From the NCBI RefSeq assembly GCF_004792665.1, contig NZ_SRZX01000001.1:1302001-1366000 (forward strand): DNA of 64,000 nt, read 5' to 3'. Position 1 is the first letter of the stretch. Every line of letters starts with the position of its first letter. A program made the position numbers and the translations under genes. A model generated the notes under the pieces. That model did not search any database. It saw only the letters and a list, made by a program, of their open reading frames with translations, and was not told the DNA's origin. The DNA comes from Marinobacter orientalis (GTDB lineage: Bacteria; Pseudomonadota; Gammaproteobacteria; Pseudomonadales; Oleiphilaceae). Of the stretch, positions 22,431-38,785 are shown piece after piece.

Positions 22431-23555
22431 CTACTGGCGAAATCCCCAAAGCAGTCCGAAGTCCATTGAGGGCATCACTTCGGGCTGCTCCACAGACCTG
22501 ACGTTGAATTCCAGCAGGCTGCAATCCCGCTCGACCGGCGCTCTGTAACGTTTGCCTCGTGTATCGATGATCGCTCTGGCGAACGGCCCCCGGTGCCGGT
22601 GGGGCCGTCTCACAATCACCGCGACCTCGTTGTTGGCGAGCTTTACCAGTGTACCCGGCGGGTATTCTGTAAGGACTGTCAGCAGAGCCCGGGGAATCGC
22701 CGGGCGGAATTTGCCATCGGCCAGAGAAGTGATCAGCTTGCGGGCCTCGACAACGTTCATCCGCTCACGGTAGGCACGGCGCGTAATCATCGCGACATAG
22801 CGCTCTGCCAGTGCCAGGATTTCCGCTTCACCGCGGATATCAGTTCCACTGAGCCCGTGAGGATAACCCGAGCCGTCTGCCTGTTCGTGATGCTGGGCGA
22901 TGATCTTCAGCAACAGCGGGCTGGTGATGTCGGCCTCTTTCAATGCCTGAATACTCCGCTGCGGGTGTCTGCGGATGACCGCGCGCTGGTCGTCAGTCAA
23001 AACCCGGTTCGAGGCATTCAGCTTGTCGGCTACCGGCACCAGCGCCAGGTTTGCTGTCAGCGCTGCGCTGACCAGTACGGCGGTGCGCTTGTCATCAAGC
23101 CCGAACTGGCGCGCGGTAAGCTGGCAGAGAATACCGTAGAACAGGATCTGTTCGTGGATGGTGGGCTCGATGGAGTAGAGGTGTACCAGCGCCAGGCTGG
23201 CCTCCGCTGACTGCTGACACATCTGGTCGATGATCCGGGACAGGCCCAGCACCCGCTTCAGCGCGCTCTCATCCCGTTCGGTAATGGCATTGATGGTCGA
23301 CTCCAGTGTCTGCAACAACGCCGGGTATTCTGCAAACGGATTGCGTAAGCCGGTATCGTCGAGTACTTCATCCTGTGGGCGCTCAATCTTGCGGGGCTGG
23401 AACCGGCCGCGCTCGAATAACTGTTCCAGTTGGGTATCGTTGTGTATGACGTACCCCTGACGCAACAGCACATTGCCGTCGGCATCGTAGACCGTCCAGG
23501 GCAGGGGTTTGCCAATGGTCAATGCGCCGGGTGCGATACGGACAAGATTCGGCAC
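22431..23555 (-). CDS. Degenerate HD-GYP domain protein
   Basis: A 374-residue soluble protein related to c-di-GMP phosphodiesterases of the HD-GYP type. The GYP part is well kept (HHEQADGSGYPHGL, about residues 235-248), but the HD pair expected in AALLHDIGK is replaced by AALTANLALVPV. The metal Asp of the usual ADVFDA segment is also missing (ALAERYVAMI). Three of the metal-binding positions are thus gone, so hydrolysis is unlikely and a binding or scaffold role is inferred. The C-terminal domain (about 305-374) resembles the small domain found after HD-GYP in many gammaproteobacteria. GTG start at 23555 with AGGAAG upstream. It follows the nine-gene signalling operon after 96 bases. Confidence 0.8.
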   Translation of the reverse strand: MPNLVRIAPGALTIGKPLPWTVYDADGNVLLRQGYVIHNDTQLEQLFERGRFQPRKIERPQDEVLDDTGLRNPFAEYPALLQTLESTINAITERDESALKRVLGLSRIIDQMCQQSAEASLALVHLYSIEPTIHEQILFYGILCQLTARQFGLDDKRTAVLVSAALTANLALVPVADKLNASNRVLTDDQRAVIRRHPQRSIQALKEADITSPLLLKIIAQHHEQADGSGYPHGLSGTDIRGEAEILALAERYVAMITRRAYRERMNVVEARKLITSLADGKFRPAIPRALLTVLTEYPPGTLVKLANNEVAVIVRRPHRHRGPFARAIIDTRGKRYRAPVERDCSLLEFNVRSVEQPEVMPSMDFGLLWGFRQ

Positions 23556-23651: not shown

Positions 23652-26525
23652 TCAGCTGACGGTGGCCCGATAATAGAGAAACGCCTGCTGGATGTGTTCC
23701 CGGATCTGCTGGTCGTCCCAGGGTTTGGTCAGGAACCTGTAGATGGCGCCCTCGTTGATGGCGTCAGTAACTGACTTCAGGTCGGTATAGCCGGACAGTA
23801 CAATGCGGACGGTCTCCGGATGAATGGCTTTGACCTCACTCAGAAAGTCGGTACCGGACATCTCCGGCATGCGCTGGTCGGAGACAATCACCTGCACCTG
23901 ATGTGCTGCCAGAAGGCTGAACGCCTCTTTTACGCTGGTAGTAGTCAGTATGCGATAACCGTCGCGGCGCAGTACCCGGGTCAGCGCCCGCAGTATGTTT
24001 TCCTCGTCATCCAGCAATAGCAGCGTGCGATCCTGATCACTGTTGGCATCGGTACGGGGTGCCAACCGGTTTCCCGACACCTGGTTATTGAGAAACATCA
24101 GCAGATCATCAAACGGCATGGGCCTGGCAAAAGCGAAACCCTGAAGAAGGTCACAATGGTTTTTGCGCAGGTAGGCTGCATGTGCCTCGGTTTCGACGCC
24201 CTCGGCCACCACTTCCAGGCCCAGGTGATGAGCCATGGAGATGACACCCTGGGTGATGGCGGCATCGCTGCGGTTTTCGATGACATCCCTGATGAATGAC
24301 CGGTCAATCTTGATCTTGTTGGCGGGCAGCAGCTTGATGTAACTGAGGCTGGAAAAGCCGGTTCCGAAATCATCGATGGCAATGTGTACCCCGAGTTCGC
24401 GAATGGTATGGAGGGTATTGATGACAAGGTCTGTATCCAGAAGGATGGCAGATTCCACCACCTCGAGCTCGAGACTTTCCGGAGGAAGGCCGGAGGCCCT
24501 CAGGGCGTTGGTGACCGTTTGGATAAAACCTTCCTTGCGGAGCTGGATCGGTGAGACGTTGACTGAGATCGAGCAATGCCGGAAGCCGCGGGAATGGAGG
24601 TGCACCATATCGCGGCAGGCTTTTCTCAGGACCCACTCGCCCAGCGCGATAATCTGCCCGGTTTCCTCCGCCAGCGGCACAAAGTCGCCCGGGGAAATCA
24701 GCCCCCGGACGGGATGCTGCCAGCGGACAAGAGCCTCGACGTTGCGGGTCTGTCCGCTGCGGGCATCCACCAGCGGCTGGTAATAGACCGAAAGCTGCTC
24801 CTGGTCGATGGCATCCTGCAGTTCGTTACGCAGGGCAACGCGGAAGCTGGCCTCCTCGTTGAACTCCTGGGAGAACCATTGATAGGTATTACGGCCCTGC
24901 TGCTTGGCGCGGTACATGGCCAGGTCTGCCTGTTGCAGCAACGCCATGGGTTTTTCAATGCTGCCGTCGGTGGTTGAGATACCGGCACTGGCGGTAAGAT
25001 GAACGGTTTCGCCATCCAGATGGTAGGGGCTGGCAATTTCGTGAATAGCACTCTCCACCACAATCACCGCGTCCTCTGCCTGGGCCAGATCAGGCAGTAA
25101 TATGATGAACTCGTCACCGCTGATCCGGGCAACGGTGTCACCAGAACGCACCAGCGCGTTCAGGCGCCTGCCCACTTCGATCAGCAACTGGTCCCCCAGG
25201 CGATGGCCGAGGGAGTCATTGATAAGTTTGAAACCGTCCAGGTCAACAAATAACAGCGCGATAGTCCGACCGTAGCGCCGGGATAACTGGCAGGCCTGGC
25301 TCAGGCGGTCTTCCAGCAGGGACCGGTTTGGCAGCCCGGTAAGCACATCATGGCTGATATTGAATGCCAGCTCGTGCTCCGCGGATTTGCGTTCCGAGAT
25401 GTCGTTCTGAACGCCAATGAAATGGGTGATCTCGCCATCGTCATCGAACATCGGGGAGATGTACAGGTCGTTCCAGAAAGGCGCGCCATCCTTGCGGTAG
25501 TTTCTCAGAACTGCAGAGACGTCAGCGCCCTTTTTCAGTCCGCGTCTTATTTCTCCGAGTCCCTGCTCGTTGCTCAGGTCAAAATCGCTACCCTGCAGGA
25601 AACGGCAGTTCTTGCCGAAAGCCTCATCAGCACTGTAGCCGGTGATTTTTTCGAATGCCCTGTTGACGTAGATAATGGGCAAATCATCCTGCCGGGCATC
25701 GGTGATGATGATGCCGTTGGAGCTCGATTCGATACTGCGCTTGAAAAGCCGCAGCTGCCGGCTGTTATCCAGCTGGGAGGTCACATCGGTAATCATCAAA
25801 ACCTTCAGCGGGCGATGGTTGATGGTCATGCTGGTGCTGACCACTTCCACAACCATTTCCCGACCGTCACGGCGCTGGTGTCTTTTGAGTATCCCTCCTT
25901 CCCTCAGCAGAATGCCCTCGGATGAAAGCCTGGGCAGTGTGTGATCAGCGGCTCGAAGCCTGTTCAGGGTCAGACCGGTGATCTCCTCATTGCTGTATCC
26001 ATAGAGAACCCGGGCAGCTTCATTCATGGAAACCAGCGCCTGGGAATCCGGTTCCATCAGGCACATCGGCGCGGGGTTGTTCTCGAACAGCAGCCGGTAG
26101 TGGCTCTCACTGGTCGCCAGGCTTTCTGTGGCCATCGCCCTGTCGATGGCGTAGCGGATGCTGCGGATCAGCGTGTGCCCGTCAACGGTCCCCTTGACCA
26201 GATAATCCGCCGCCCCCAGTTCTACAGCGCGGACATCCAGCTCATCATCACCCTGTCCGGTCAGCAGAATGAAAGGGGTAGTGATGTTGCGCTCCCGGGC
26301 CTGCTGAATCAACTCGATCCCGGAATCGGGGCCCAGGCGAAGATCCACCAGTGCCACCGCGTAATCCCCTGTCTCCAGAGCGGCGATGCCTTCACGGTAT
26401 GAGTCTACCCAATCCAGCCGGGTGCTGACCGGGCTGCTGTCCTGGAGCAGGTCGAGGGTGATCAGGTAATCGTCTTCGTCGTCTTCAATCAGCAGGATGC
26501 GCAGCAAGGGATCATTCTCGGTCAT
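23652..26525 (-). CDS. REC-PAS-PAS-GGDEF-EAL-REC hybrid response regulator
   Basis: A 957-residue soluble protein that could both make and break c-di-GMP under phosphorylation control. Order: receiver (phospho-Asp61 in ALVDLRLGP), two PAS domains (about 145-260 and 270-390), GGDEF (about 395-560; motif SGDEF near 469 with I-site RSGD before it), EAL (about 580-820) and a second receiver (about 830-950; Asp near 881 in IVSDQRMP). The EAL catalytic set looks complete: EALVRWQHP, ELEVVESAIL, IDDFGTGFSSL, KIDRSFIRD and VVAEGVETE. The cyclase motif has Ser for the first Gly, which is sometimes still active. Receivers at both ends are unusual. It overlaps the upstream response regulator by 14 bases and is the last gene of the operon. 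Confidence 0.9.
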   Translation of the reverse strand: MTENDPLLRILLIEDDEDDYLITLDLLQDSSPVSTRLDWVDSYREGIAALETGDYAVALVDLRLGPDSGIELIQQARERNITTPFILLTGQGDDELDVRAVELGAADYLVKGTVDGHTLIRSIRYAIDRAMATESLATSESHYRLLFENNPAPMCLMEPDSQALVSMNEAARVLYGYSNEEITGLTLNRLRAADHTLPRLSSEGILLREGGILKRHQRRDGREMVVEVVSTSMTINHRPLKVLMITDVTSQLDNSRQLRLFKRSIESSSNGIIITDARQDDLPIIYVNRAFEKITGYSADEAFGKNCRFLQGSDFDLSNEQGLGEIRRGLKKGADVSAVLRNYRKDGAPFWNDLYISPMFDDDGEITHFIGVQNDISERKSAEHELAFNISHDVLTGLPNRSLLEDRLSQACQLSRRYGRTIALLFVDLDGFKLINDSLGHRLGDQLLIEVGRRLNALVRSGDTVARISGDEFIILLPDLAQAEDAVIVVESAIHEIASPYHLDGETVHLTASAGISTTDGSIEKPMALLQQADLAMYRAKQQGRNTYQWFSQEFNEEASFRVALRNELQDAIDQEQLSVYYQPLVDARSGQTRNVEALVRWQHPVRGLISPGDFVPLAEETGQIIALGEWVLRKACRDMVHLHSRGFRHCSISVNVSPIQLRKEGFIQTVTNALRASGLPPESLELEVVESAILLDTDLVINTLHTIRELGVHIAIDDFGTGFSSLSYIKLLPANKIKIDRSFIRDVIENRSDAAITQGVISMAHHLGLEVVAEGVETEAHAAYLRKNHCDLLQGFAFARPMPFDDLLMFLNNQVSGNRLAPRTDANSDQDRTLLLLDDEENILRALTRVLRRDGYRILTTTSVKEAFSLLAAHQVQVIVSDQRMPEMSGTDFLSEVKAIHPETVRIVLSGYTDLKSVTDAINEGAIYRFLTKPWDDQQIREHIQQAFLYYRATVS

Positions 26526-26988
26526 GGTGTTCCGGTCTTGTTGGCAGGGTCACTGTGCATTTCCAGTAGTTCGTCAGCGACGAGACTACATCCAGCAATC
26601 CTGAATAGCTTGATGGCTTGACAATGTAGGAATTAGCCCCGGCGGCATAACAGTGACGAATGTCATCCTCATTGCCCGAGGTCGTCATGACAACTGTCGG
26701 GATTGTTTGCAATCCGGGGTCGGACTTGATCTCCCGCAGCGCCTCCCGGCCGTCTTTCAGTGGCATATTGAGGTCCAGCAGTATCAGGTCCGGGCATCCG
26801 GAGGGTGCGTCAAGCTCGTCCGGAAGTGCCTCCTCTCCGTTGAGGATGCGCATCAGCTGTACGCCATCGTGAGCGAAGCAGATCCGGCAGTCATGACAGC
26901 GCTCCGCGAAAGCCTCCTTCATCATCAGTCGGTCGTCGGGGTCATCCTCGGCAATCAGGATGATCGGTGATAGTTTCGAATCAGTCAT
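26512..26988 (-). CDS. Single-domain response regulator (Rcp1-like)
   Basis: A 158-residue stand-alone receiver. Acid pocket EDDPDD (residues 14-19), phospho-Asp72 in LILLDLNMP, Thr in VVMTTSG, Lys in YIVKPSS. The insertion between strands 2 and 3 and the pattern LNMPLKDGREALREIK are typical of small regulators paired with phytochrome-like or PAS histidine kinases. The kinase of that type is the gene directly upstream, overlapping by eight bases, so that kinase is the likely phosphodonor. There is no output domain, so it should relay phosphate or bind a target. AAGGAAG ribosome binding site. Confidence 0.9.
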   Translation of the reverse strand: MTDSKLSPIILIAEDDPDDRLMMKEAFAERCHDCRICFAHDGVQLMRILNGEEALPDELDAPSGCPDLILLDLNMPLKDGREALREIKSDPGLQTIPTVVMTTSGNEDDIRHCYAAGANSYIVKPSSYSGLLDVVSSLTNYWKCTVTLPTRPEHHDRE

Positions 26989-29900
26989 TGGCGCTTCCTT
27001 TCATCCGTTTACTGATTGGAAAGTGAATACGGAAAGTCGTTCCGTGATCGACTTCGCTCTCGACAGAGACCTTGGCGTTGTGGCGGTCCAGTATCTTTTT
27101 CACGATAGCGAGACCGATGCCGGAGCCGGGGAAGGCCTGTTTGTGCAGCTGCTGAAAAGGTTGGAAAAGCTTTTCAGTGTAGCGCTCGTCAAACCCCACA
27201 CCATTGTCACTGACAACCAGGGTCCAATGGTCTGCCGTGCCGTAATCAGGGTAAATCGACACACCGGGGTTTTGGCCCGGCTTGTGAAATTTTATGGCGT
27301 TGCTCAGCAGGTTCTGGAACACCTGGCGAAGCTGGGTGGCGTCACCGGTGATGGAGGGCAGAGAGCTGGCATCGATTACCGCGTTTTCCCGGGAGATAAC
27401 CGTCTCCATGTCCTGCAGTACCTCAGACAGAATGCGGTCAGTGTCGCAAAGGGTCAATGGTTGTGCCCGGGTAGTCACTCTTGAGTAGGTGAGCAGATCC
27501 TGGATCAGGGACTGCATGCGCCTGGCAGCTGATTGCATCCGTTGCAGATAGTCCTGTTCCCGGTCATCAAATCGGTCTGGCCGGGTTAGCAGGCGGTCTG
27601 AAAATGCCTGGATCTTGCGCAGGGGTTCCTGGAGGTCATGGGAGGCGACAAAGGCGAAATCCTGTAGCTCCCGGTTGCTGCGTTCCAGCTCGGCCATCGT
27701 CTGTTCCAGTTTCAGTTGCGCCTGTTTTCGCTCGTTTATACTGCGATAGTAGACGGCCAGGCCTTCATCCGAGGGGTAGGCACTGACCTCCAGCCAGGTA
27801 TCCAGGGGCGCGTAACAGGCTTCAAAGGAAACAGACTCACCGGTCTCCATGGCGTGCCGGTATTGGCGCTCAAATTCACTATCCTGTGCTGCCGGGAACA
27901 TTTCCCAGAGGGTCCTGCCTAAAAGCGCATCACGGCTTTCATTGAGCAATTCCTCCGAACGCTGGTTGACGTAGGTGAAACACCATTCACGATCGAGGGT
28001 AAAAAAGGCATCGGTGATGCTCTCGAAGATGATGGACTGCCGCTCGGCAAATCGCCGGATCTGGTCCATGGCCTGATGTGAGGCCGTGATGTCCTGCAGG
28101 CCGCCCTGGATCTGGATGATCCCGCCATCCTCGTCCCTGACGGCCTGACCGATCACCCGGACCCACCGTAAACGGCCGAGCCAGGTACGAATCTGCACTT
28201 CCTCATCGAAGGAAATGCCGCTCTGTATACACAATTTAACGGCATCAGTTATGGCTTTGCGGCTATCCGGTGTGTAGAGCGTGAGTGCCTCATCAAGGGC
28301 TGGCACCTCACCAACCGGCATCTCGAAAATATCGAACATGGCATGGGACCAGCGGGTTTGCCCGCTAGCCACATCCAGCACCCAGCCACCGATGCGGGCG
28401 GCCTTTTCGGCAATTTTCAGCAGGGTTTCACTTTCACGAAGCTTTTCCTGGGTGTGCCGCATTTCCGTGGTGTCACGGCCTACCACATAAATGAGATCGT
28501 CCGAGCTGAGGATGGCGCTGAACTCAAGCCAGTGCTGAGTGGTGTTCTTGTTGATTAACCGGACCAGAAGGCCTCTGACAGTCTGTCCGGTTATCACTGC
28601 AGCCACCGCCTCCTCGACTTTGGGCTGATCATCCTCATGGATCAGTTGCATGTAGGAAGTGCCCAATAATTCCTCGCGTTCATAGCCGAGTACATCTACA
28701 AAGGCGTTGTTGAGTTCAAAAAAGTAGCTGTTCAGATCGACAATGCAGAACATGTCCGGTGATAACGAGAAAAACTGTTCCCGCTCCCGCATCAGTGTTT
28801 CCGCCATCAGCTGGTCGGTCATATCCCGGCCTACACAGAACAGAGCCTGGTCTTCATTGGACCATTCAGCCGTCCAGGACAGAGTTACGATATGGCCGTC
28901 CCGGTGAAGCATGTGGTTGCGAAAGCCATCACTGACCCGGCGTTCGCCGGCCATGAGTTTTCGCATCTCTTCTGCCGTGGCTTCGCGGTCTATATCCGGG
29001 ATCAGAACGTCATAGGCTCCGCCAATAAGTTCCTCCGGCCGATAACCCAGAATATCCTCCGCAGCGGGATTGATGGACGTGAACCGGCCTTTTGCATCGA
29101 TTGAACACAGGATGTCCCGGGAAAACTCCATGATGCGTTCGTTGGCCTGCCTGAATGACATCTCGCGGGACAGGTGGGCATTCACGGTTTGGTTGAGCTT
29201 GCGCAGGCTGCGGAAGCGGCGCTCGGATTCGCGCCAGAAAAGCTGGCTGAGCATCATCAGAAAACTGAGTATCAGGCCGGTAAACAGGACCATTGGCGGG
29301 AGATAGAGAACGGTCGCGGGAAGCACGCCTTCCCGTGCGTAAACGTCAATTCGCCACTGGCTGTCGTGGTCAGAATGTGTATGGCGGGTTGCCAGTGGAA
29401 TTGCCGGGCCTCCGGATGTATCCGGGGAAAGGTGGAAAACCGGAATGTTCCGGTAATAGACCCTCACGCTCAGGTCACCATCGTAGTGCTGAAGCAGGCT
29501 GCTATAGGCATCTTCCAGATCAATAACGGCGAAGATGACCCAGGGCTTTCCGGTCACGGCCCTGGCTGGAGCGGCGATCATGGCATACATGCGGCCGCTC
29601 TCATCCGGTTGGGGCGGACTGAGATGCGTACCACTGGAGCTGATCACTTGATCCAGCCATTTCTGGTTGTCCGGTATCTGCAGAAAACTGTCGAGCCAGC
29701 GCCGGTATTGCTCTCCCCGGGAATCGGCCCTCAGAAGTTGTTGGCCCGGATCCAGGATGCCAATAAGCCGGATTTCACGGAAGTCGTTCAGGTAACCCTG
29801 TACGTCCTGTTCCCAGTCTCCCTGTGCCGGCATACCTGTCAGCAATTGCTGGCGTTCGGCCAGCCGTCGGATCAGCGCCAGATCGTCATTGAAGGTCGCT

Positions 29901-30619
29901 GTACTGGAAGCCCTCAACTGCTCAGCCAGAACCTCCGCCCGGTCTTGCAGGCTATCGCTGTTCTGGACACGCATGGCGTGCCAGGTGACTGTTGTCAGTG
30001 CTATGCCAAAGGCACCGACCAGTACCAGCCTCGCCGAAAAATTCGGTAGATCGCGGCGGTGAATGGTGTGGAGGAATGGCAAAACCATGCCCGCCAGGAT
30101 AGCCAGTGGGCTGACAATAATGGTTGATTGCGGAATGGTGCCAAGGCTGAAGGCCTGGAGTGGCGGATACCAGTAGGAAAACAATGAAAGCAGGCCCAGT
30201 GCCATGACAAGCAGGCCGCATGCCAGCCCCACATGCCTCCCCCTGGGAAGGTAGATTACCGCCAGCAGGGCGAGTTCCGTCAGCAGAACCACCAGCAGCA
30301 GAGGCGTGCTGATGGCGAGGATTTCCAGCGATTCTGTAGCCGGGATGCGAGGCAAGACAGCCTGGCAAAGGGCGATGATACTGGTCAGGCAGGCCAGTGC
30401 CACGGCCGTCGTTGTTCTGCGAAACACCAGCGCCAGGAGAGAGGTACCGAGCAACACGGAGACCAGCCCGCCGCCTGGCGATAGCGAAACCCGCCCATTG
30501 GCACTGTCGTTCAGGGAGAAATGATCGAACAGGATCACCAGCCCGATGGCCATGAGAGCAATGGCCAGGGACAGCACAAGGCAGAACCGTCCGATGACCG
30601 GGTTGCGCATCTCGCTCAT
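26981..30619 (-). CDS. Membrane multi-PAS sensor histidine kinase
   Basis: A 1212-residue sensor kinase. The N-terminus has about seven membrane helices (residues 8-225), then a periplasmic sensor region (about 230-440) and one more helix (about 445-475). Four or so PAS domains follow (about 490-970), each with the fold words typical of PAS plus PAC, for example GYRPEELIGGAYDVLIPD and GYEREELLGTSYMQLIHED. HisKA has the phospho-acceptor His994 in FVASHDLQEPLRK, the phytochrome/Rcp1-partner style. HATPase spans about 1090-1205 (NAIKFHKPG, DNGVGFDE, GSGIGLAIVKKI). The start overlaps the stop of the REC-ATPase gene by four bases. No receiver or HPt is attached. The signal is unknown. Confidence 0.9.
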   Translation of the reverse strand: MSEMRNPVIGRFCLVLSLAIALMAIGLVILFDHFSLNDSANGRVSLSPGGGLVSVLLGTSLLALVFRRTTTAVALACLTSIIALCQAVLPRIPATESLEILAISTPLLLVVLLTELALLAVIYLPRGRHVGLACGLLVMALGLLSLFSYWYPPLQAFSLGTIPQSTIIVSPLAILAGMVLPFLHTIHRRDLPNFSARLVLVGAFGIALTTVTWHAMRVQNSDSLQDRAEVLAEQLRASSTATFNDDLALIRRLAERQQLLTGMPAQGDWEQDVQGYLNDFREIRLIGILDPGQQLLRADSRGEQYRRWLDSFLQIPDNQKWLDQVISSSGTHLSPPQPDESGRMYAMIAAPARAVTGKPWVIFAVIDLEDAYSSLLQHYDGDLSVRVYYRNIPVFHLSPDTSGGPAIPLATRHTHSDHDSQWRIDVYAREGVLPATVLYLPPMVLFTGLILSFLMMLSQLFWRESERRFRSLRKLNQTVNAHLSREMSFRQANERIMEFSRDILCSIDAKGRFTSINPAAEDILGYRPEELIGGAYDVLIPDIDREATAEEMRKLMAGERRVSDGFRNHMLHRDGHIVTLSWTAEWSNEDQALFCVGRDMTDQLMAETLMREREQFFSLSPDMFCIVDLNSYFFELNNAFVDVLGYEREELLGTSYMQLIHEDDQPKVEEAVAAVITGQTVRGLLVRLINKNTTQHWLEFSAILSSDDLIYVVGRDTTEMRHTQEKLRESETLLKIAEKAARIGGWVLDVASGQTRWSHAMFDIFEMPVGEVPALDEALTLYTPDSRKAITDAVKLCIQSGISFDEEVQIRTWLGRLRWVRVIGQAVRDEDGGIIQIQGGLQDITASHQAMDQIRRFAERQSIIFESITDAFFTLDREWCFTYVNQRSEELLNESRDALLGRTLWEMFPAAQDSEFERQYRHAMETGESVSFEACYAPLDTWLEVSAYPSDEGLAVYYRSINERKQAQLKLEQTMAELERSNRELQDFAFVASHDLQEPLRKIQAFSDRLLTRPDRFDDREQDYLQRMQSAARRMQSLIQDLLTYSRVTTRAQPLTLCDTDRILSEVLQDMETVISRENAVIDASSLPSITGDATQLRQVFQNLLSNAIKFHKPGQNPGVSIYPDYGTADHWTLVVSDNGVGFDERYTEKLFQPFQQLHKQAFPGSGIGLAIVKKILDRHNAKVSVESEVDHGTTFRIHFPISKRMKGSAND

Positions 30620-32862
30620 TCGTTAAGCACCTGGGGCCCCAGCAATCTCAGAATTTCCTCAGGGGTAGTCAGTCCATCCCGGAGTTTCTCCAGCGCATCG
30701 TCCAGCAGTACCCGCATACCCTGTTCCCGGGCAATGGACTCGATCTGCATGGCGCTGGCGCCTTCGGTGATGGCAATTCGTAATTGCTGGTTCATGGTGA
30801 GCACTTCATGGATCGCTACCCGGCCCTTGTAGCCCTTATGGCACTTGTCGCAGCCCTTGCCGCGGTAAAAGACAAGTTCCGGCGCCATGAATTCAGGCCC
30901 CAGCTGTTCCAGAGTTTCCGTAGGGGCGTCCGTCTGCTCGCAGCAATGGGGGCAGATTCGCCGCACCAGGCGCTGGGCAATGATGGCCTCCAGGGTCGAA
31001 GCCAGCACGAACGGCTTCAGGTCAAGATCCAGCAGGCGTGCCACAGTGGCGGAGGCGGAACTGGTGTGCAGGGTGGAGTACACCAGATGGCCGGTCATGG
31101 CGGCATGGAAGGCCACATCGGCGGTTTCCTCGTCGCGGATTTCTCCCAGCAGGATCACGTCCGGGTCCTGTCGCAGAATCGCGCGCAGTACACTGGCAAA
31201 GCTCAGACCGATCCGGTCCTTTACCGGTACCTGGCCGGCCATGTCGACGTGAAATTCCACCGGATCTTCAATGGTGACGTAATTACGCTCCGGCGAGGCA
31301 TTGTGTTGCAGCAGGGCGTAGAGCGTCGTGGTCTTGCCGCTGCCGGTGGGGCCGGTGGCCAGAATAATGCCCTGGGGCTTGGCGACCACGTGCATCAGGC
31401 GCTTGAGATTGTGTTCTGACAGGCCCATGTCTTCCAGGGACTGTGCCGAGGACTGGCGCTCCAGTACCCGCATGACCACCTTCTCGCCGTTGATGGTGGG
31501 CAGGGTGGAAATCCGCAGGTCGACGATCTTCATCGGCGTCTTGACGGTAATGCGCCCGTCCTGGGGTTTGCGGCGTTCGGTAATGTCCAGCTCCGCCATC
31601 ACCTTGATGCGGGATACCACAGACATCAACAGGTTGGTGGGGATGTGGATCTTGTCCTGCAGCACCCCGTCAATCCGGTAACGTACCACCAGCGATTTGG
31701 TGCGGGGATGGACGTGAATGTCGCTGGCCCCGAGGCGCAGGGCTTCAAGGATGATGGCATTGACCAGGCGAATCGCCGGTGGCTCCTCGGAGCTTCCCAG
31801 CAGCTGCTCCAGGGACTCCTTGTCACTGTCTTCATCCAGAACGATTTCGATGCCCTCATAGGGGTCATCAGTGCCGACCTTGGTGGCAATATCGTCCAGC
31901 TCGCTGGTTTCGCCGAAAACTTCCGTCAGCTTGGCCTGCATCCGGGTGGTTTCGCACAGTAACGGATGGATGGTGTACCCGGTCATGAACCCCAGTTCGT
32001 CGATCAGATTCACATCCATCGGGTCTACCATCGCCAGCCGCAGTCGCTGGCCCTGTACCCGCAGCGGCAATACCAGCTGACGGGTGCAGATTTTCTTGGG
32101 AACCAGCGACATCAGTGCCGGGTCCGGCTGGAATTCACGCAGATCAATTTCCTCGAACAGCATGTCATCCCGCAACATTTCAAAGACCTTGCGGAAATCG
32201 ACCCACTCATGCTTGAGTAACTGACGAATCACCGGGGTTTTCTCGCTCTGCATCTCCCGGTGCAGCTGCTGGATCTGCTGCGGATTCAGCCAGCCCTTCT
32301 TGTGCAGCAGTATGGCAAGCTGGCTGCGGTTGGTGGCTGTCAGCTTGCTGATGGTCTCCAGGTCTTTGTGCTGTTTTTTGGTCTGTTGTTCCAGTGCCCG
32401 GGTACGCTGGATGAGCTCGTACTGCTCCAGGGCCAGGGCGATGGTCAGGCGGATGTCGTCATCGTTCCAGGGCTTGAGAATGAATCGGTAAACCGCCCCC
32501 TCTTTGATGGAGCCCATGACAGCGTCGGTATTGGCATGGCCGGTGAGCATGATGCGGATGGTGTTTGGCCAACGCTCACGTACTTCCCGCAGTAGTTCGC
32601 TGCCGTTCATGTGGGGCATCATGAAGTCGGTCATGATCAGCTCCACCGGCTGCTTCTCCATGATACGCAGGGCTTCATTGCCGTTGCTGGCAAACAGCAG
32701 CTCGTAATTCTCGCGCTGGAAAACCCGGCGCAGGGAAGCCAGGATGTTGGGCTCGTCATCGACCAGCAGCAGACGGTAGGGTGCTTTCTTTTGTTCAGCC
32801 ACCGGCGGGGATTTATCGTCCGGGTCCTGGTTGAAAAACAATGACGCGTAGCGTTTGGCCAT
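30616..32862 (-). CDS. Receiver domain fused to a PilB/GspE-type assembly ATPase
   Basis: A 748-residue fusion. An N-terminal receiver (about residues 28-150, phospho-Asp79 in IMTDFMMP, YRFILKPWND near its end) is joined by a helical linker to a GspE/PilB N-terminal (MshEN-like) domain (about 180-330) and a type II/IV secretion ATPase (about 365-730). The ATPase looks active: Walker A GPTGSGKTT with Lys510, Walker B region PDVILLGEIRDEET, and a Cys4 zinc motif (CPHC to GCDKCHKGYKG, about 634-680). The Cys4 motif marks extension or secretion ATPases, not the PilT retraction type. No gspF, pilC, pseudopilin or secretin gene is near. ATG at 32862 with AAGG upstream is preferred to TTG at 32868. 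Phosphorylation could gate the motor; that is inference. Confidence 0.9.
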   Translation of the reverse strand: MAKRYASLFFNQDPDDKSPPVAEQKKAPYRLLLVDDEPNILASLRRVFQRENYELLFASNGNEALRIMEKQPVELIMTDFMMPHMNGSELLREVRERWPNTIRIMLTGHANTDAVMGSIKEGAVYRFILKPWNDDDIRLTIALALEQYELIQRTRALEQQTKKQHKDLETISKLTATNRSQLAILLHKKGWLNPQQIQQLHREMQSEKTPVIRQLLKHEWVDFRKVFEMLRDDMLFEEIDLREFQPDPALMSLVPKKICTRQLVLPLRVQGQRLRLAMVDPMDVNLIDELGFMTGYTIHPLLCETTRMQAKLTEVFGETSELDDIATKVGTDDPYEGIEIVLDEDSDKESLEQLLGSSEEPPAIRLVNAIILEALRLGASDIHVHPRTKSLVVRYRIDGVLQDKIHIPTNLLMSVVSRIKVMAELDITERRKPQDGRITVKTPMKIVDLRISTLPTINGEKVVMRVLERQSSAQSLEDMGLSEHNLKRLMHVVAKPQGIILATGPTGSGKTTTLYALLQHNASPERNYVTIEDPVEFHVDMAGQVPVKDRIGLSFASVLRAILRQDPDVILLGEIRDEETADVAFHAAMTGHLVYSTLHTSSASATVARLLDLDLKPFVLASTLEAIIAQRLVRRICPHCCEQTDAPTETLEQLGPEFMAPELVFYRGKGCDKCHKGYKGRVAIHEVLTMNQQLRIAITEGASAMQIESIAREQGMRVLLDDALEKLRDGLTTPEEILRLLGPQVLNE

Positions 32863-32871
32863 GATCAATCC

Positions 32872-34017
32872 TTAGCGGACTGGCAGGGAAAGGGTAACAC
32901 GGGTGCCCTTGCCTTCCCTGCTGTCGATCTGAATGGTGCCCCGGTGAGCGCGCACAGTATCCCGGGCGACGGTCAGGCCCAGGCCGGTGCCGGCTCCCAC
33001 TGGCCGGCTGGTGAAAAAAGCGTCAAAGACCTGTTCGCGAATGTCTTCGGCAATACCGCAGCCGTTGTCCTGAATTACCACCCGGACACCGTCACTGTCG
33101 ACACTGGTTTTTGCGAGGATTCGCCCGCCCTGAGTCCCCTGTTCCCCGGCCCTGAGTGCCTGTGCAGCATTGTCGAGCAGGTTGTAAAAGGTTTGTGATA
33201 GCCGTGACGGATGGCCGGAAATCTTCGGCAGCTCGCCTGGCTTTTCCAGGATGTCCAGATCCTGGCCATATTCGGTCTGGAGCAGATGCACGGCACTGGA
33301 CAGCAACTCGTTGACGTCACACAGGGTATAGTCAGCCTGATCAATGCTGGAGAAGGTTTTCAGGTCCGACACGATGCTGGCGATGCGGCTGGCACCGTCG
33401 GACGATTCTCCGATCAGGTCGGCGAAGTCGTCCAGCAGTTCCCGGTTCTGATCTGTGTCCGGTACCATCTGCCGCAGATCGCTGACATATTCACCGGCTA
33501 CCTTGAGGTTGCTGGACATGAAACCGATCGGGTTGTTGATCTCATGGGCCACGCCGGCCGCCAGCTGCCCGACGGAGCGCAGTCGGGCACTTTCATAAAG
33601 GTCCATCTGCGCCTGTTTGATCACTGCGACCTGTTCGTCCACCTTGTCCTGCAGCTGGCTGGAGAGTGCACGGTAACGGGCTTCCGAGGCCTTCAGCGCC
33701 TCGTTCTGTTTCTGAAGCTCGGCGTAGCTGGCCTCGGTGGTGTCGTGGTGCAGGTTCGCGGCCAGCCGGTACTTGGCAATAAACATCATCAGAAAGGACA
33801 CCAGATCGGCGGCAGCGAGACGTTCCTGCCCGGAACTGCCACCAGACAGCCAACCCACTGTTTCCAGGTTGAATTCCAGCGCCACCGCGCCGCTATCCCG
33901 GTTTCCGCTGATCTCGACCGGTTCGCGGCACAGCGCGCTGAGCATGCGGTTCAGGCGCTTCAGCTGATCACTGGTGAGCAGATCTTCGAGAGTGGGATCA
34001 TCTTCAAAGTTACGCAC
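32872..34017 (-). CDS. Soluble sensor histidine kinase
   Basis: A 381-residue cytoplasmic histidine kinase with no membrane helix. An N-terminal region of about 90 residues has no recognised fold; a coiled coil (about 95-140) leads into HisKA with His158 in GVAHEINNPIGF. HATPase follows (about 255-380; NLLDNAAQAL, DNGCGIAEDI, GTGLGLTVARD). The class is the NtrB/HisKA_4-like group shared with the kinase at 36559. It overlaps the upstream MglA-like gene by eight bases when started at GTG 34017, which has GAGGA seven bases upstream; GTG 34029 would give four more residues. It is the probable donor for the receivers in the operon. Confidence 0.88.
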   Translation of the reverse strand: MRNFEDDPTLEDLLTSDQLKRLNRMLSALCREPVEISGNRDSGAVALEFNLETVGWLSGGSSGQERLAAADLVSFLMMFIAKYRLAANLHHDTTEASYAELQKQNEALKASEARYRALSSQLQDKVDEQVAVIKQAQMDLYESARLRSVGQLAAGVAHEINNPIGFMSSNLKVAGEYVSDLRQMVPDTDQNRELLDDFADLIGESSDGASRIASIVSDLKTFSSIDQADYTLCDVNELLSSAVHLLQTEYGQDLDILEKPGELPKISGHPSRLSQTFYNLLDNAAQALRAGEQGTQGGRILAKTSVDSDGVRVVIQDNGCGIAEDIREQVFDAFFTSRPVGAGTGLGLTVARDTVRAHRGTIQIDSREGKGTRVTLSLPVR

Positions 34018-34678
34018 GGTTTTCCTCACTGGCGGCGCTCAGTTGCCGGATAAAGGTGTCGCGATCAATACCGTGATCCGTGTGCAGCGCAAATTCCCTG
34101 TCTACCTCGGTATAAAGCCGGTCGAGAAGCACCCGGAAGGTGTCGATAACGCCCTTGCCATGGAGGGCGGATGCCATTTGCAGCGGTGCCCAGGGGGTCC
34201 CGGCCCATCGCTGCTGGAGTTCAGCGTCGCCGACCACTCCGGGAAGATCGCGTTTGTTGAACTGGACCGCCATCGGCAGGCTGTCGATATCCAGCCCGAC
34301 CTTGTCCAGGTTTTCTTCCAGGTTTCCGAACGCCGTGGCGTTGTTGTCCTGCTGGCCGGCCTGGGAGTCTGCTACAAAAACCACGGCATCCGCCCGGGAC
34401 AGAACCGCCTTGCGTGTACTGTCGTGCTGGACCTGGCCTGGTACGGTGTACAGCTTCAAGCGTAGATCCAGCCCGGAGTCGCCTTTCAGTCCGATCGGCA
34501 ACATGTCGAAGAACAGGGTGCGGTCGTCGCGGGTTTCCAGCACCATCAGCTCGCCCTTGCGCTGGGGGTTCAGCAGGGAATGCAGTTGCATCAGGTTGGT
34601 GGTTTTACCGCTCAGTGCGGGGCCGTAAAAAACCACCTTGAGAGCCAGCCTGTTTTCTTCAGGGCTATGATCCGCCAT
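34010..34678 (-). CDS. mglA: MglA-type small Ras-like GTPase
   Basis: A 222-residue GTPase closely resembling Myxococcus MglA, the switch that sets the leading cell pole and recruits type IV pilus and gliding machinery. G1 is GPALSGKTTN (Lys25), the catalytic loop is YTVPGQV with Gln82, DSQ follows the family-typical VVFVADSQ, and G4 is NKRDLP (Asn141, Asp144). The C-terminal extension (about 195-222) is longer than in Myxococcus MglA. No mglB (Roadblock GAP) gene lies in the operon. AGAGG ribosome binding site; ten bases after the upstream response regulator. Linkage to a PilB-like motor and several receivers supports a polarity or motor-control role, which is inference. Confidence 0.9.
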   Translation of the reverse strand: MADHSPEENRLALKVVFYGPALSGKTTNLMQLHSLLNPQRKGELMVLETRDDRTLFFDMLPIGLKGDSGLDLRLKLYTVPGQVQHDSTRKAVLSRADAVVFVADSQAGQQDNNATAFGNLEENLDKVGLDIDSLPMAVQFNKRDLPGVVGDAELQQRWAGTPWAPLQMASALHGKGVIDTFRVLLDRLYTEVDREFALHTDHGIDRDTFIRQLSAASEENRA

Positions 34679-34688
34679 CAGAGCCTCT

Positions 34689-35213
34689 TCACTGTTGGCC
34701 GATCAGCACGGAGCCGTCAGCATCGCGCTGGACACGGGTAATGCCCGGGTTGTCCTTCTCCAGGCGCAGCAGTTCCTGCTCCCGGGCCCTGATCATCCGG
34801 CGCTGGGCATCCACTTCGTCCAGCAGTCGCCGGTTTTCGGACTTCAGCTCATAGATATCGATGGCGGATTTGATGGCAGCGACAACTTCATAGTCGTCCC
34901 AGGGCTTGGACAGGTAGCGATAGACTTCCGCCTGGTTAATGGCCTTGATCATGGAGTTGCGGTCGCCGTAGGCACTGAGCACCAGGCGCATGGCATCCGG
35001 TTGGCGCTGCTTGGCAAACTGCAGATAGGTCACGCCATCGGCCGTGGGCATCTGATAGTCAGAAATGATGGCAGCGTAGTTGTGCTCCAGTAGCCCTCCC
35101 AGCGCCGCCTCAACGTTGTCGTAGGCGTGGATTTCCCAGCCGTGTGGGCGCAGCAGGCGCTTGAGGGCATTGAGGATGTTCGGTTCGTCATCCACCAGCT
35201 GAATCTTGATCAT
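34689..35213 (-). CDS. Response regulator with C-terminal coiled coil
   Basis: A 174-residue protein: receiver at residues 1-120 (Asp8/Asp9, phospho-Asp52 in IISDYQMP, Lys103 in YRYLSKPWDD), then a helical coiled coil (about 125-160; SENRRLLDEVDAQRRMIRAREQEL) and a short polar tail. There is no DNA-binding or enzyme domain. In MglA systems a receiver protein (RomR) acts as polar adaptor; this protein could do that here, but RomR similarity outside the receiver is not evident. Its start overlaps the upstream gene's stop by four bases (ATGA). Confidence 0.88.
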   Translation of the reverse strand: MIKIQLVDDEPNILNALKRLLRPHGWEIHAYDNVEAALGGLLEHNYAAIISDYQMPTADGVTYLQFAKQRQPDAMRLVLSAYGDRNSMIKAINQAEVYRYLSKPWDDYEVVAAIKSAIDIYELKSENRRLLDEVDAQRRMIRAREQELLRLEKDNPGITRVQRDADGSVLIGQQ

Positions 35214-36556
35214 GAAACTTTCTCCGTTTCTTCCTCGTCCGGGCGGTGCACATATACTGTGTAGCGGGTGCCGTCCGGTTCGCCTTTCTCGAACGCCACC
35301 AGTTTGTCAATGAGTATGGATGTCAGTTCCTTGCCTTCGTTCAGCAACAGCATGCCGGAGGCGGCATAAAGGTTGCGGGCCAGTACCATGCCGGCCTCCA
35401 GCCGCAGGGTGTCGAGGGCCACGATATCCGGATCTTCATGTTCCACGTCCGGAGCCACCTCAATGCATACTTCCAGGAAACGATCTGCAATCTCGGGATC
35501 GTAAAGCCGGTCCCGATATCGCTTGATCAGCTTCAGGGCGTTGTCCCTGGGAACCCTGCGCTCCAGAATCAGACCGTATTGCAACTCGATGAAATCCACC
35601 GCCAGCCTCAGGATTCTGGACCCCAGCGGAATCCCGGTGCCTTCCAGTCTTTCGGGCACCCCGTAGCCATTCCATTTTTCCTGATGATGCCGGATGATCC
35701 GGGCGGTTTCTTTCAGGGGCTCCAGTGCCATTAACAGCTGTTCACTGTTGACCGGATATTTCAGGTACTCCAGGCGCTGCTCTTTGGTCAGCAGGTCAGA
35801 CGGAGCCCTGAACAGCTCGTCGGGCCAGCCCAGCTTGCCGAGATTGTAGAGAGCGGCAGCCATGTAGAGGTCCCGGGAGAGGTCTTCGTCAAGCTGGTGG
35901 TATTCAGCGTAGGCCTTCACCAGCGCGATCACCCTGGTATTGGGCTGGCGGTTGGCCGGCAGGCGTTTGTTGATCAGCGTGGAGAAGACCTCGGTGGCGG
36001 TGACATAGCTGTGTTTCAGCTCTTTGTAAGCCACATCGAGCATGTCAGCGGTTTCCTTCAGCTCCTCGGTGCGGGCCTGTACCTTGTCTTCCAGGCTGGC
36101 ATTGAGTGCCTGCAATTCCCTGTTCTGCTTGCGGGTCAGTTTTTCCAGGGCCAGCCGGCGACGTTCCGAATACTGGAACGCAAGGGCCTGGCGGATCACC
36201 AGTTTCAGCTCCTCGTCGTCCCAGGGCTTGCTGATGTAACGGTAAATCTGGCCGTCATTGATGGCCTTGATGGTGGAATTGATGTCGGTGTAGCCGGTGA
36301 GCAGTATGCGAATACACCACGGCCACTTTTTCTTGATCCCGGACAGCAGGGTAGGGCCATCCATGCCCGGCATGCGGGCATCCGAAATCACCAGGTCGAA
36401 TTTCTGCTCATTGAGCAGTGCCAGCGCGTCCTCGCCGGATGTGGCCGTGACGATGTCGTAAGGCTCCCTGCGCAGTGTCCGTTGCAGACTGCGGAGGATG
36501 TTTTCCTCGTCATCCACCAGCAGCAGGTTGGCCCGGGAGGGAAAAGAATCTGACAT
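35210..36556 (-). CDS. Response regulator with degenerate HD-GYP output domain
   Basis: A 448-residue protein: receiver at about 8-130 (phospho-Asp59 in VISDARMP, YRYISKPWDD), coiled coil (about 140-185), and an HD-GYP-like domain (about 190-370). As in RpfG, the fold would be a c-di-GMP phosphodiesterase, but the motifs are eroded. The HD pair in LLHDIGK is replaced by ALYNLGK, and HHERWDGSGYP is replaced by HHQEKWNGYGVP. It is therefore probably inactive as an enzyme and acts as a binding or relay module. The last 70 residues match the tail of the protein at 22431 only loosely (LEAGMVLARNLYAASGMLLL). It lies two bases after the upstream kinase gene. Confidence 0.87.
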   Translation of the reverse strand: MSDSFPSRANLLLVDDEENILRSLQRTLRREPYDIVTATSGEDALALLNEQKFDLVISDARMPGMDGPTLLSGIKKKWPWCIRILLTGYTDINSTIKAINDGQIYRYISKPWDDEELKLVIRQALAFQYSERRRLALEKLTRKQNRELQALNASLEDKVQARTEELKETADMLDVAYKELKHSYVTATEVFSTLINKRLPANRQPNTRVIALVKAYAEYHQLDEDLSRDLYMAAALYNLGKLGWPDELFRAPSDLLTKEQRLEYLKYPVNSEQLLMALEPLKETARIIRHHQEKWNGYGVPERLEGTGIPLGSRILRLAVDFIELQYGLILERRVPRDNALKLIKRYRDRLYDPEIADRFLEVCIEVAPDVEHEDPDIVALDTLRLEAGMVLARNLYAASGMLLLNEGKELTSILIDKLVAFEKGEPDGTRYTVYVHRPDEEETEKVS

Positions 36557-36558
36557 GG

Positions 36559-37422
36559 TCAGCTCCCTGCTTTGTCCGCTGCGGCCTCGGGCTGCTTCAG
36601 TGGCAGTGAGATGCGAAAGCAGGTGCCCTTTCCGGTAGAGGCATGTTCGGCAGTGATACTGCCGCTGTGTTTCTGGACGATGTTAAACGACAGGGACAGG
36701 CCCAGCCCGGTACCCTTGCCCACGGGTTTTGTGGTGAAAAAGGGCTCGAAAATCCGGTGCAGGTTCTCCCGGGCTATCCCCTTGCCGTTATCCTCGACTT
36801 CAACGACGGCCCAATCACCGTCGCAGCGGGTACGAACGATGATTTCACCAAAATCCTCAATGGCGTGAGCAGCGTTTACCAGCAGATTCATGACCACCTG
36901 GTTGATCTGGGAACTGATGCATTCCACTTCCGGCAGGTCGCCAAACTCCCTGGTCACGGTGGCTTTGTATTTCAGCTCGTTGTTGACCACGTTCAGGGTG
37001 GTTTCAATCCCGCGGTGCAGATCCGCCGGTTTGAATTCCTCGTCCTCGATATGGGAGAAATCCTTCATTGCTGAAATGATGGTTTTGACGCGCTCGATAC
37101 CCTCCCGGGATTCCGCCAGCAGATCCTTAAGGTCACCCTTCAAAAAGCTGTAATCTATATTCTTTTTAATCGCGCTCAGGTCATCCAGCGATGCCCCGGC
37201 ATCCACCGCATCGGTGAGCCTGAACAGATCTTCCAGATAGGTGCCCAGGCTTTGCAGGTTGGAATAGACATAGCCCACCGGGTTATTGATTTCATGGGCA
37301 ACGCCCGCCGCCAGTTGCCCGATAGCCGCGAGCTTCTCGGACTGAAGCAACTGCCGGTTTGCCTGCTCCAGCCTGGCGTTCAGCTGATCCTGCTGTGATG
37401 ATCCGGGATTGATGTCTGACAT
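36559..37422 (-). CDS. Soluble sensor histidine kinase, first gene of the operon
   Basis: A 287-residue compact kinase without sensor domain or membrane helix: a short coiled coil (about 8-35), HisKA with His43 in GVAHEINNPVGYVYSNL, a long helical insert, and HATPase (about 165-280; NLLVNAAHAI, DNGKGIAREN, GTGLGLSLSFNIVQ). It is the same class as the kinase at 32872. The start is uncertain: ATG at 37422 gives a clean N-terminus, GTG at 37482 adds 20 residues; neither has a strong ribosome binding site. With no sensor, it may respond through a bound partner. The diguanylate cyclase gene is divergent. Confidence 0.86.
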   Translation of the reverse strand: MSDINPGSSQQDQLNARLEQANRQLLQSEKLAAIGQLAAGVAHEINNPVGYVYSNLQSLGTYLEDLFRLTDAVDAGASLDDLSAIKKNIDYSFLKGDLKDLLAESREGIERVKTIISAMKDFSHIEDEEFKPADLHRGIETTLNVVNNELKYKATVTREFGDLPEVECISSQINQVVMNLLVNAAHAIEDFGEIIVRTRCDGDWAVVEVEDNGKGIARENLHRIFEPFFTTKPVGKGTGLGLSLSFNIVQKHSGSITAEHASTGKGTCFRISLPLKQPEAAADKAGS

Positions 37423-37774
37423 AATGATAGCCCGTTCGGCGGATTGCTCCGGGATTCCGGAAAAGCCAGCTTGCAGTGACACGCAATACGTTTAATCGAA
37501 ATGTGAGTTTATTGTTGTCCATGTGGGGGGCAGTATAGGGGTTTTGAGCAGTCATCAACGTAACATTTGGTATCCGGATTATTGGTTTATTTATCCGGTT
37601 ATGCTGATCAGAAGATCGCTGAACATTGAAGTTTTGTTAAATGTGGCTGGTCAGATCTCGGACAGCCGGATATTGGGCTATGATAGTTTGCTAATGAGGC
37701 TTCAGCCGGAACAGGCCCGGGGAACACTGAGGTCGGAAAGTGTAGTCGGGGCGGCCCGTATTCCGGTGAGCATT

Positions 37775-38785
37775 ATGTTCTATCGTCTGAAAACTGATTT
37801 CCGGCTGTCGATTATTACCCTGTTGGCAACCAGCGGGCTTCTCGGTATCACGCCGTTTGCGGTGATGCGTTTTTTGCAGGGCAATATACTGGCCGGCGTG
37901 GTTGATCTGATCATCATGCTCTTCATCACCGCATGCATGGTGTACGCCTGGGCGAGCGGAGATACCGCCCGCAGCGGTTTTTTCATGGCAGTGGTAGCTT
38001 GCGCCGGTGCAGTGACCGCGGGCGCTGTCGTGGGGGAGGCGGGCCTGTTCTGGCTCTATCCCTGCCTGGTAACCAGTTTTTTTCTTACTGAGCCGCGCTA
38101 TGCGATATTCATCAATATGGCTGCCGTCGTTGCACTGATGGTGCATGGCGTTGCCTTCAGTTCAACAGTCCAGATGTGGTCTTTTGCAGCCACCGCGGTT
38201 GTCGTGAGTTGTTGTGCCCTCGCTTTTGCCCATCGTAATGAGGACCAGCGGGAGCGTCTGGCGCACCTGGCGACCATTGACCCACTGACCGGAGTCAAGA
38301 ACCGCCGCTCCATGGATGAAGAGTTGTCAGTAGCGACTGCCAGTGCGGCCAGGACAGGCATCTCCTATGGCCTGGTGCTGCTGGATATTGATCATTTCAA
38401 AAAGGTTAACGATGCTCACGGCCACAGTGTCGGGGACGAAGTGCTGAAGGATCTGGTGGCACTGATTGGGCAGAATATCCGCAAATCCGATCAGCTGTTC
38501 CGGTTCGGCGGTGAGGAATTCGTACTGTTGATGAGCGGCGTGGATCAGGCCGGGCTAAGGGCAGTGATGCATAACCTGCAGCAGATCATGCATAAGTTCC
38601 TGAAGCACCCGGGCGGCAAGGTGACGGCCTCGTTTGGTGTCGCCCTGTTAAAAAATGGAGAGGCGCCTGAAGACTGGCTGGTAAGGGCCGATGAGGCGCT
38701 TTATAAAGCCAAGTCCAGCGGCCGCGACCAGATTGTTTACGCAGAGGAGGTGGATTCCGGGGAAACAGCGGCAGAACCGGCCTGA
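37775..38785 (+). CDS. Membrane diguanylate cyclase
   Basis: A 336-residue c-di-GMP synthase with about five or six membrane helices in the first 150 residues and a GGDEF domain (about 165-320). The active motif is FGGEEF near residue 245, and the inhibitory site RKSD lies five residues before it. The domain start shows IDPLTGVKNRRSMDEEL. I chose ATG at 37775 because GGTGAG lies upstream and the protein then starts just before the first helix; the open frame extends to 37523 with no similarity or ribosome binding site. About 350 bases separate this start from the divergent kinase start. It ends six bases before the convergent MATE gene. Confidence 0.87.
   Translation: MFYRLKTDFRLSIITLLATSGLLGITPFAVMRFLQGNILAGVVDLIIMLFITACMVYAWASGDTARSGFFMAVVACAGAVTAGAVVGEAGLFWLYPCLVTSFFLTEPRYAIFINMAAVVALMVHGVAFSSTVQMWSFAATAVVVSCCALAFAHRNEDQRERLAHLATIDPLTGVKNRRSMDEELSVATASAARTGISYGLVLLDIDHFKKVNDAHGHSVGDEVLKDLVALIGQNIRKSDQLFRFGGEEFVLLMSGVDQAGLRAVMHNLQQIMHKFLKHPGGKVTASFGVALLKNGEAPEDWLVRADEALYKAKSSGRDQIVYAEEVDSGETAAEPA

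Follow-up and report, generated by a model that had tools for sequence, protein, structure and literature searches.

In Myxococcus xanthus, the GTP-bound form of the small GTPase MglA acts with SgmX to bring PilB to the cell pole, and MglA thus affects pilus extension through the placement of PilB (PMC7519303). Outside Myxococcus, how the place or time of pilus extension is chosen is known for only a few species. Here we describe a putative nine-gene operon in a window of 64,000 nt (the whole stretch analysed) from the 4.0 Mb genome of Marinobacter orientalis (GCF_004792665.1, contig NZ_SRZX01000001.1, positions 1,302,001-1,366,000). Its conserved core, made up of an MglA-type GTPase, a histidine kinase (HK5) and an ATPase fused to a receiver (REC) domain, suggests, on comparative sequence evidence, that pilus steering or gating can take a form that has been little described.

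The core shares with the Myxococcus xanthus polarity module (MglA, MglB, RomR and SgmX) a Group 1 MglA with an intrinsic arginine finger and the involvement of receiver proteins, but it has no MglB in the operon, and kinases and a REC domain fused to an ATPase share one operon. SofG, an orphan Group 1 GTPase of the same species, also lacks a known cognate GTPase-activating protein (GAP) and has been tied to the positioning of PilB and PilT (PMC4316618); the GTPase gene described here, unlike that of SofG, is fixed beside kinase and ATPase genes. In Synechocystis, the CheY-like protein PixE binds PilB1, so that cyanobacterial PATAN-CheY proteins offer a precedent for a receiver acting directly on a pilus ATPase, with light as the input (PMC9090330). 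PixE is a separate receiver protein, whereas our receiver is fused to the ATPase and is accompanied by a small GTPase. The actinobacterial conservons (Cvn, AGPS) likewise join a histidine kinase and a small GTPase in an operon, but their GTPase belongs to Group 2, they include the roadblock protein CvnB and CvnC, and the abstract describes no receiver-ATPase (PMC13343842). Lastly, the ATPase resembles PilB, MshE and GspE in its T2SSE domain with Walker, Asp-box and His-box motifs and zinc cysteines, and differs from them in its N-terminal REC domain, its separate clade, its failure to reach the cut-offs of the PilB and GspE models, and the lack of a platform of its own in the host.

Group 1 members occur in beta- and gamma-Proteobacteria, in highly variable gene neighbourhoods (PMC4316618). 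The parts of that paper's main text covered here do not mention the present arrangement, and we found no description of the operon in the titles and opening lines of abstracts listed by searches of the open-licence PMC literature. The core appears to bring together pilus control by MglA, control of PilB by a receiver, and operons that pair a kinase with a GTPase, all of them known kinds of system, in a combination for which we found no report.

Conservation of the core

The three core genes, numbered by their place in the operon, are as follows.

Gene 4, 34010..34678, minus strand: MglA, Group 1 small GTPase, with Arg53, TVPGQ including Gln82, and NKRD
Gene 5, 32872..34029, minus strand: HK5, HisKA/HATPase kinase with an N-terminal alpha-beta-beta-beta-alpha domain followed by a long helix; 20-base overlap with mglA
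Gene 6, 30616..32868, minus strand: REC-MshEN-T2SSE ATPase (REC-PilB, here REC-ATPase)

Because a whole-genome search with the Pfam Arf model missed the window MglA and returned two other matches, the MglA protein itself was used as the query thereafter. A contig scan of genomes yielded at least 560 MglA relatives, from which the best 80 were kept, a set that includes near-duplicate Marinobacter and is not random. With six further loci, these gave 86 loci (L numbers) with MglA, of which 84 were readable, the contigs of L040 and L075 ending early. MglA, HK5 and the REC-ATPase stood in order on one strand in 80 of the 84, with HK5 at most 400 bases from the end of MglA and the start of the REC-PilB match 700-2500 bases after that end. 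These 80 loci include four with a damaged ATPase (L047, L050, L055 and L056), one with an ATPase cut by the contig end, one with a split HK5 (L073), and L081, where an extra receiver gene lies in between. In the remaining four loci, the ATPase is missing (L049 and L054), no frame is recognisable as HK5 (L078), or MglA is present only in truncated form (L017). The triad is carried by Marinobacter, Pseudomonas/Stutzerimonas, methanotrophs, Thiobacillus, Gallionella and others; the closest named loci among the best 80, with 94% MglA identity, are those of Marinobacter vulgaris, M. azerbaijanicus and M. denitrificans.

An independent search pointed the same way. In a class sample of 274 genomes, drawn evenly, nine had MglA relatives: six intact and close (including the window), one truncated (G036) and two distant (about 30% identical). 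The reverse search, with residues 1-349 of the REC-ATPase and at most seven candidates scored per genome, gave a full-length match in six genomes, identical to the six with an intact close MglA (Fisher p 1.3e-11, or 1.5e-10 counting the two distant relatives). In the remaining 24 of the 30 genomes listed, the match was limited to the receiver part, mostly in frames the size of REC-HD-GYP proteins, and G036, scored in full, had no REC-PilB match at E 1e-40. An earlier, sequence-only reading of the window had proposed a search for this neighbourhood in other genomes and had allowed that the order might be peculiar to this one; the recurrence of both genes side by side answers that doubt.

Six further genes complete the operon.

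Gene 1, 36559..37422, minus strand: HK1, HisKA and HATPase (Pfam); best NCBIfam match T2SS_HK, NF038348
Gene 2, 35210..36556, minus strand: REC-HD-GYP (REC and HD_5), NosR family; HD replaced by Tyr-Asn
Gene 3, 34689..35213, minus strand: REC and coiled coil, with a conserved PGIT-type C-terminal tail
Gene 7, 26981..30619, minus strand: histidine kinase with three PAS stretches and HisKA/HATPase; N-terminus hydrophobic (by eye)
Gene 8, 26512..26988, minus strand: stand-alone REC
Gene 9, 23652..26525, minus strand: REC-PAS-LOV-GGDEF(SGDEF)-EAL-REC; Pfam finds two REC, two PAS, GGDEF and EAL

Nine successive open reading frames (ORFs) thus run along the minus strand from 37422 to 23652, with junctions, from gene 1 to gene 9, of +2, -4, +10, -20, +3, -4, -8 and -14 bases (negative values are overlaps). 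The tight packing reported by the sequence-only reading is therefore borne out by the ORF list, and Pfam agrees with its domain assignments for all nine genes; by gene order and domain content, this is a nine-gene putative operon whose domain calls hold (the kinase labels 'soluble' and 'membrane' were judged by eye). Its idea of a nine-gene system survives in part, for the packed genes are present but the conserved unit is smaller. Where 9 kb or more of sequence was available on each side (55 loci), an HK1-type kinase was present in 53, REC-HD-GYP in 42, REC-coiled coil in 38, a GGDEF-EAL protein in 39 and a stand-alone receiver resembling the C-terminal REC of gene 9 in 14, each counted wherever it lay in the locus and whatever its strand. 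Genes 7-9 are mainly a Marinobacter addition, found also in some Pseudomonas-type and other loci (gene 7 in a few of the latter), and are not fixed elsewhere; we therefore rejected the nine genes as a unit.

The GTPase and the MglB question

On profile evidence, gene 4 encodes a true MglA: its family profile matches Myxococcus xanthus MglA at E 1.7e-54 and the MglA of 3t12 at E 2.8e-51, while the window protein scores 21.4 bits against the Pfam Arf model, slightly below its cut-off of 22.3. Motif alignments were built from rows passing length and coverage filters, with 84 (MglA), 74 (ATPase) and 59 (HD-GYP) loci, each plus the window. Arg53, Thr78, Gly81 and Gln82 are kept in 85 of 85 MglA rows, the window included. 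Group 1 is defined by an intrinsic Arg in G2 and TVPGQ in G3 (PMC4316618), and by these motifs gene 4 encodes a Group 1 and not a Group 2 protein. Distant MglA-like domains (about 30% identity) were also seen in frames of ~490 aa at L010 and L011, in two other genomes.

Scanning ten window genes with Pfam revealed no roadblock (Robl_LC7) domain, so there is no MglB in the operon. At E 0.001, 42 of 55 other module genomes had no roadblock match, and 8 of 25 control genomes, hand-picked from class genomes with pilM matches, had one, counts to be read knowing that draft assemblies may miss short genes. The host's sole PF03259 (Robl_LC7) match, L100:1411-1818 (-), considered as a possible MglB, is distant from the operon. 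It adjoins a second small ORF of equal length, with no MglA in the 3.2 kb examined and, by eye, ferredoxin/globin-like and ABC/phosphatase-like ORFs around it. From this distribution, the MglA of the module most likely operates without MglB.

The kinases

HK5 lies directly after MglA in 82 of the 84 readable loci; it is split in L073, unrecognised in L078, and missing beside the truncated MglA of L017. No other gene accompanies MglA so constantly, which makes HK5 the leading candidate for a partner of the GTPase. The H-box His-Glu is invariant across an alignment of 67 of the 79 available sequences, and a stricter H-box motif pattern fits 78 of 81 HK5 proteins. The structure predicted from the 67 sequences has a mean pLDDT (predicted local distance difference test) of 87.5, and the 50 Foldseek matches listed for the complete model belong to histidine kinases or to sensors related to them. 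Modelled by itself, the N-terminal domain (residues 8-108) reached pLDDT 86.4 and pTM (predicted template modelling score) 0.72, in the order alpha-beta-beta-beta-alpha. It has no Pfam match, and Foldseek found nothing for it in the PDB at E <=0.001. A MglB/roadblock fold for this domain was considered and is unsupported, the best PDB match having an E of only 0.16.

The distance matrices of MglA, HK5 and the ATPase correlate with r 0.84-0.90, as expected for co-inherited genes, and so are no proof of contact. HK1 scores 307 bits against NF038348 (T2SS_HK), under the cut-off of 450, and its AHEINNP-type H-box is present in 73 of 73 homologues examined.

The REC-ATPase and the pilus

Gene 6 scores 428.6 bits against T2SSE (PF00437; cut-off 24.9), 561.1 against the PilB model TIGR02538 (cut-off 675.65) and 542.2 against the GspE model TIGR02533 (cut-off 630.25). 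By PDB profile search, its nearest solved relatives are PilB (528 bits) and GspE (466 bits). All 75 ATPase rows retain the REC phospho-acceptor (Asp81) and the four zinc cysteines, and 74 the Walker-A Lys; the catalytic motifs are intact in all rows except four from Halomonadaceae. A tree of 54 sequences, omitting L047 and L056 (Walker-A pattern unmatched) and the contig-cut L172, placed the REC-ATPases in one clade of 27 rows (support 100/100), separate from the host PilB-like and GspE-like proteins and on a long stem of 1.32 changes/column.

The host genome has eight T2SSE matches and four T2SSF proteins, each of the latter close to another ATPase (the host labels PilB/PilC, GspE/GspF and Tad were assigned from position and size). 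The REC-ATPase thus has no private platform, and must borrow one or act otherwise. The host has another orphan T2SSE ATPase (429 aa) at L124:1435-2724 (-), with no T2SSF match on the same contig; by eye, it is flanked by aldo/keto-reductase-like and sugar-epimerase-like genes.

PilM was above cut-off in 49 of 50 module genomes, the sole miss being L048, a 2.3 Mb metagenome-assembled genome. These 50 were taken from the 80 loci, omitting mostly near-duplicate Marinobacter and short contigs and including the ATPase-less L049 and L054. PilM occurred in 202 of the 274 genomes of the class sample; once the six module genomes are set aside, the count is 196 of 268 (module versus non-module, p 1.5e-5, uncorrected for kinship, completeness or genome reduction). 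The sequence-only reading had linked the operon to a pilus or secretion motor. The pilus link gains indirect support from the orphan state of the ATPase, its nearest solved structure and PilM, while the function, the wiring of the phosphorelay and the identity of the motor are things we infer.

A model for the core and its alternatives

We give even chances to a model, built on gene content and motifs, in which the core relays signals so as to gate or position an alternative ATPase of the extension type at the cell's ordinary type IVa pilus machine. Its parts would be MglA, HK5 and the REC-ATPase, joined in most cases by an HK1-type kinase and REC-HD-GYP. MglA would run its GTP cycle without MglB, with HK5 as its partner, either as an effector or, through its N-terminal domain, as a substitute GAP. 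HK5 would phosphorylate the REC domain of the ATPase, so that kinase signals set the phosphorylation of the receiver, and MglA-GTP would determine where the phosphorylated REC-ATPase is located. The phosphorylated REC-ATPase would then engage PilC and change at which pole or at what time pili are extended. In Marinobacter, the LOV-containing GGDEF-EAL protein would probably bring in blue light and cyclic di-GMP (c-di-GMP).

Several observations weigh against this model. Gene 6 falls short of the PilB cut-off, PilM is common in class genomes anyway, and the recurrent neighbours of the module include no recognised pilus gene. The link between HK5 and MglA consists of gene order and correlated distances (r 0.90), which shared descent would also give. 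A roadblock protein is present somewhere in 13 of the 55 other module genomes and in the host, and the limit of seven candidates per genome means that the REC-ATPase search may have missed a match. Finally, four Halomonadaceae loci with a damaged ATPase and two without one indicate that a working ATPase is not needed for the system to be maintained.

The last point deserves closer attention, as it bears on two alternatives. Titles or tree labels assign nine loci to Halomonadaceae. In four of them (L047, L050, L055 and L056), residues of Walker A, Walker B or the His-box are damaged and the REC phospho-Asp is retained; L062, L065 and L067 are outside the damaged rows. In L049 and L054, the ATPase gene is not beside MglA, no REC-PilB match was found elsewhere at E 1e-40, and a GGDEF-EAL gene comes next after MglA-HK5. 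The ATPase is thus damaged or absent in six of nine loci that still have MglA and the kinase, which suggests that ATP hydrolysis is dispensable while the GTPase-kinase pair stays.

The alternative that survives best, although we think it unlikely, is that the REC-ATPase is a regulator and not a motor, damping extension by forming mixed hexamers with PilB or by competing for PilC, with the REC domain as the part that matters. The four damaged proteins that keep their phospho-Asp would fit this idea, as would the long stem of the REC-ATPase clade. The catalytic motifs are nevertheless practically invariant in the remaining rows, which argues for selection on ATP hydrolysis.

A second alternative is that MglA-HK5 forms a general signalling switch, somewhat like a conservon, with the ATPase as one of several outputs. 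The ATPase-less loci L049 and L054, where a GGDEF-EAL gene takes the next place, speak for such a switch, and conservons offer a precedent for linking a kinase with a small GTPase (PMC13343842). However, the ATPase is in order in 80 of the 84 readable loci, the MglA motifs are those of Group 1, and no CvnB-type roadblock was found in the ten window genes scanned (CvnC was not searched for); we rate this, too, as rather unlikely.

It is quite improbable that the ATPase drives another machine, such as type II secretion or an unrecognised filament. Its GspE score nearly equals its PilB score (542 versus 561 bits) and GspE/GspF-like and Tad-like genes are found in the host as well, but the PDB profile search ranks PilB above GspE and PilM is nearly universal in module genomes. 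A chance gathering of signalling genes with no joint function, which the variation of genes 7-9 between lineages might suggest, is very improbable indeed, being already contradicted for the triad by its order in 80 of 84 loci and its matching occurrence in 274 genomes; for genes 7-9 it may still apply.

A fuller version of our preferred model, in which the REC-ATPase is a second pilus motor, is possible, although we would not bet on it. This would be a widespread proteobacterial G-protein system whose Group 1 MglA functions in the absence of MglB; a dedicated kinase reads, and perhaps drives, its GTP cycle through a new N-terminal domain and signals by phosphorylation to a receiver fused to that motor, with a blue-light input in Marinobacter. 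The model touches on the question of how a Group 1 MglA without MglB is switched. As GTPase, kinase, receiver and motor are adjacent in culturable marine bacteria, this question and that of where and when pili are extended are both approachable by simple deletions. The Halomonadaceae series (ATPase intact, damaged or absent, with MglA and kinase intact) represents a ready natural comparison.

Cyclic di-GMP and blue light

Gene 2 scores 550.3 bits against the NosR-type REC-HD-GYP model NF053512 (cut-off 400). The phospho-Asp is kept in 60 of 60 family rows, while the HD positions read His in 27 and Asp in 23. The window protein has Tyr-Asn at the HD metal ligands, as the sequence-only reading had noticed when it called this domain degenerate, and thus lacks the residues expected of an active phosphodiesterase; the HD-GYP domain is probably non-catalytic here.

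The MshEN domain of gene 6 scores 75.1 bits, over its cut-off. MshEN domains bind c-di-GMP through the motif RLG...G...L..Q. At these positions the expected Arg is Gln in 70 of 75 rows and the expected Gly is Ala in 70 of 75; because of these replacements, c-di-GMP sensing by the ATPase through the canonical motif is doubtful.

LOV domains carry their adduct cysteine in the motif GxNCRFLQ. The second PAS of gene 9 contains GKNCRFLQ, which the sequence-only reading had overlooked. YtvA and LOV-kinase models match gene 9 at about residues 260-387, under their whole-protein cut-offs. Of 19 Marinobacter orthologues whose alignment starts at the N-terminus, 18 have the LOV motif, as do 27 of the 40 related proteins in total. 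An EAL motif is present and GGDEF reads SGDEF; judging from these motifs, gene 9 probably lowers c-di-GMP under blue-light control. Its C-terminal REC is 47-70% (mostly 56-70%) identical to the receivers of stand-alone proteins beside the triad elsewhere, two of which, when scanned, had weak PAS matches behind the receiver, one below the Pfam cut-off. An older receiver component may have been fused to the GGDEF-EAL protein.

Neighbouring genes and transcription signals

The PGIT-type tail of gene 3 is conserved among 52 relatives and the window. Between 22300 and 37800, promoter-like sites are not in excess (5 versus 6.7 expected), and terminator-like sites are in slight surplus (17 versus 12.4 expected, standard deviation 3.5). 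A weak terminator-like site lies on the minus strand at the junction of genes 1 and 2 (36562-36550).

Clustering of 525 other ORFs from 82 loci (near-duplicates L021, L028, L057 and L067 omitted) gave neighbour families present in at least four loci. These include DUF6901 (12 loci) and HDOD (11), both confirmed by Pfam and exemplified near the module by L045:4551-5237 (-) and L075:2-811 (+); names given by eye to other recurrent neighbours include transporters, a PAS-chemoreceptor and aldehyde dehydrogenase, among others. None of these families, most of them named by eye and with single ORFs left unannotated, was recognisable as a structural gene of a pilus or secretion system, in agreement with the sequence-only reading, which had seen none among the genes of the operon.

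On the same strand as gene 9 and 96 bases downstream of it lies an HD_5 gene (22431-23555, minus strand), which retains its HHE/DGSGYP part and has an HD motif unrecognisable by eye; it may be an extension of the operon. Upstream, a GGDEF gene (37523-38785, plus strand) diverges from the operon, and several Marinobacter loci likewise have an opposite-strand GGDEF-like frame upstream.

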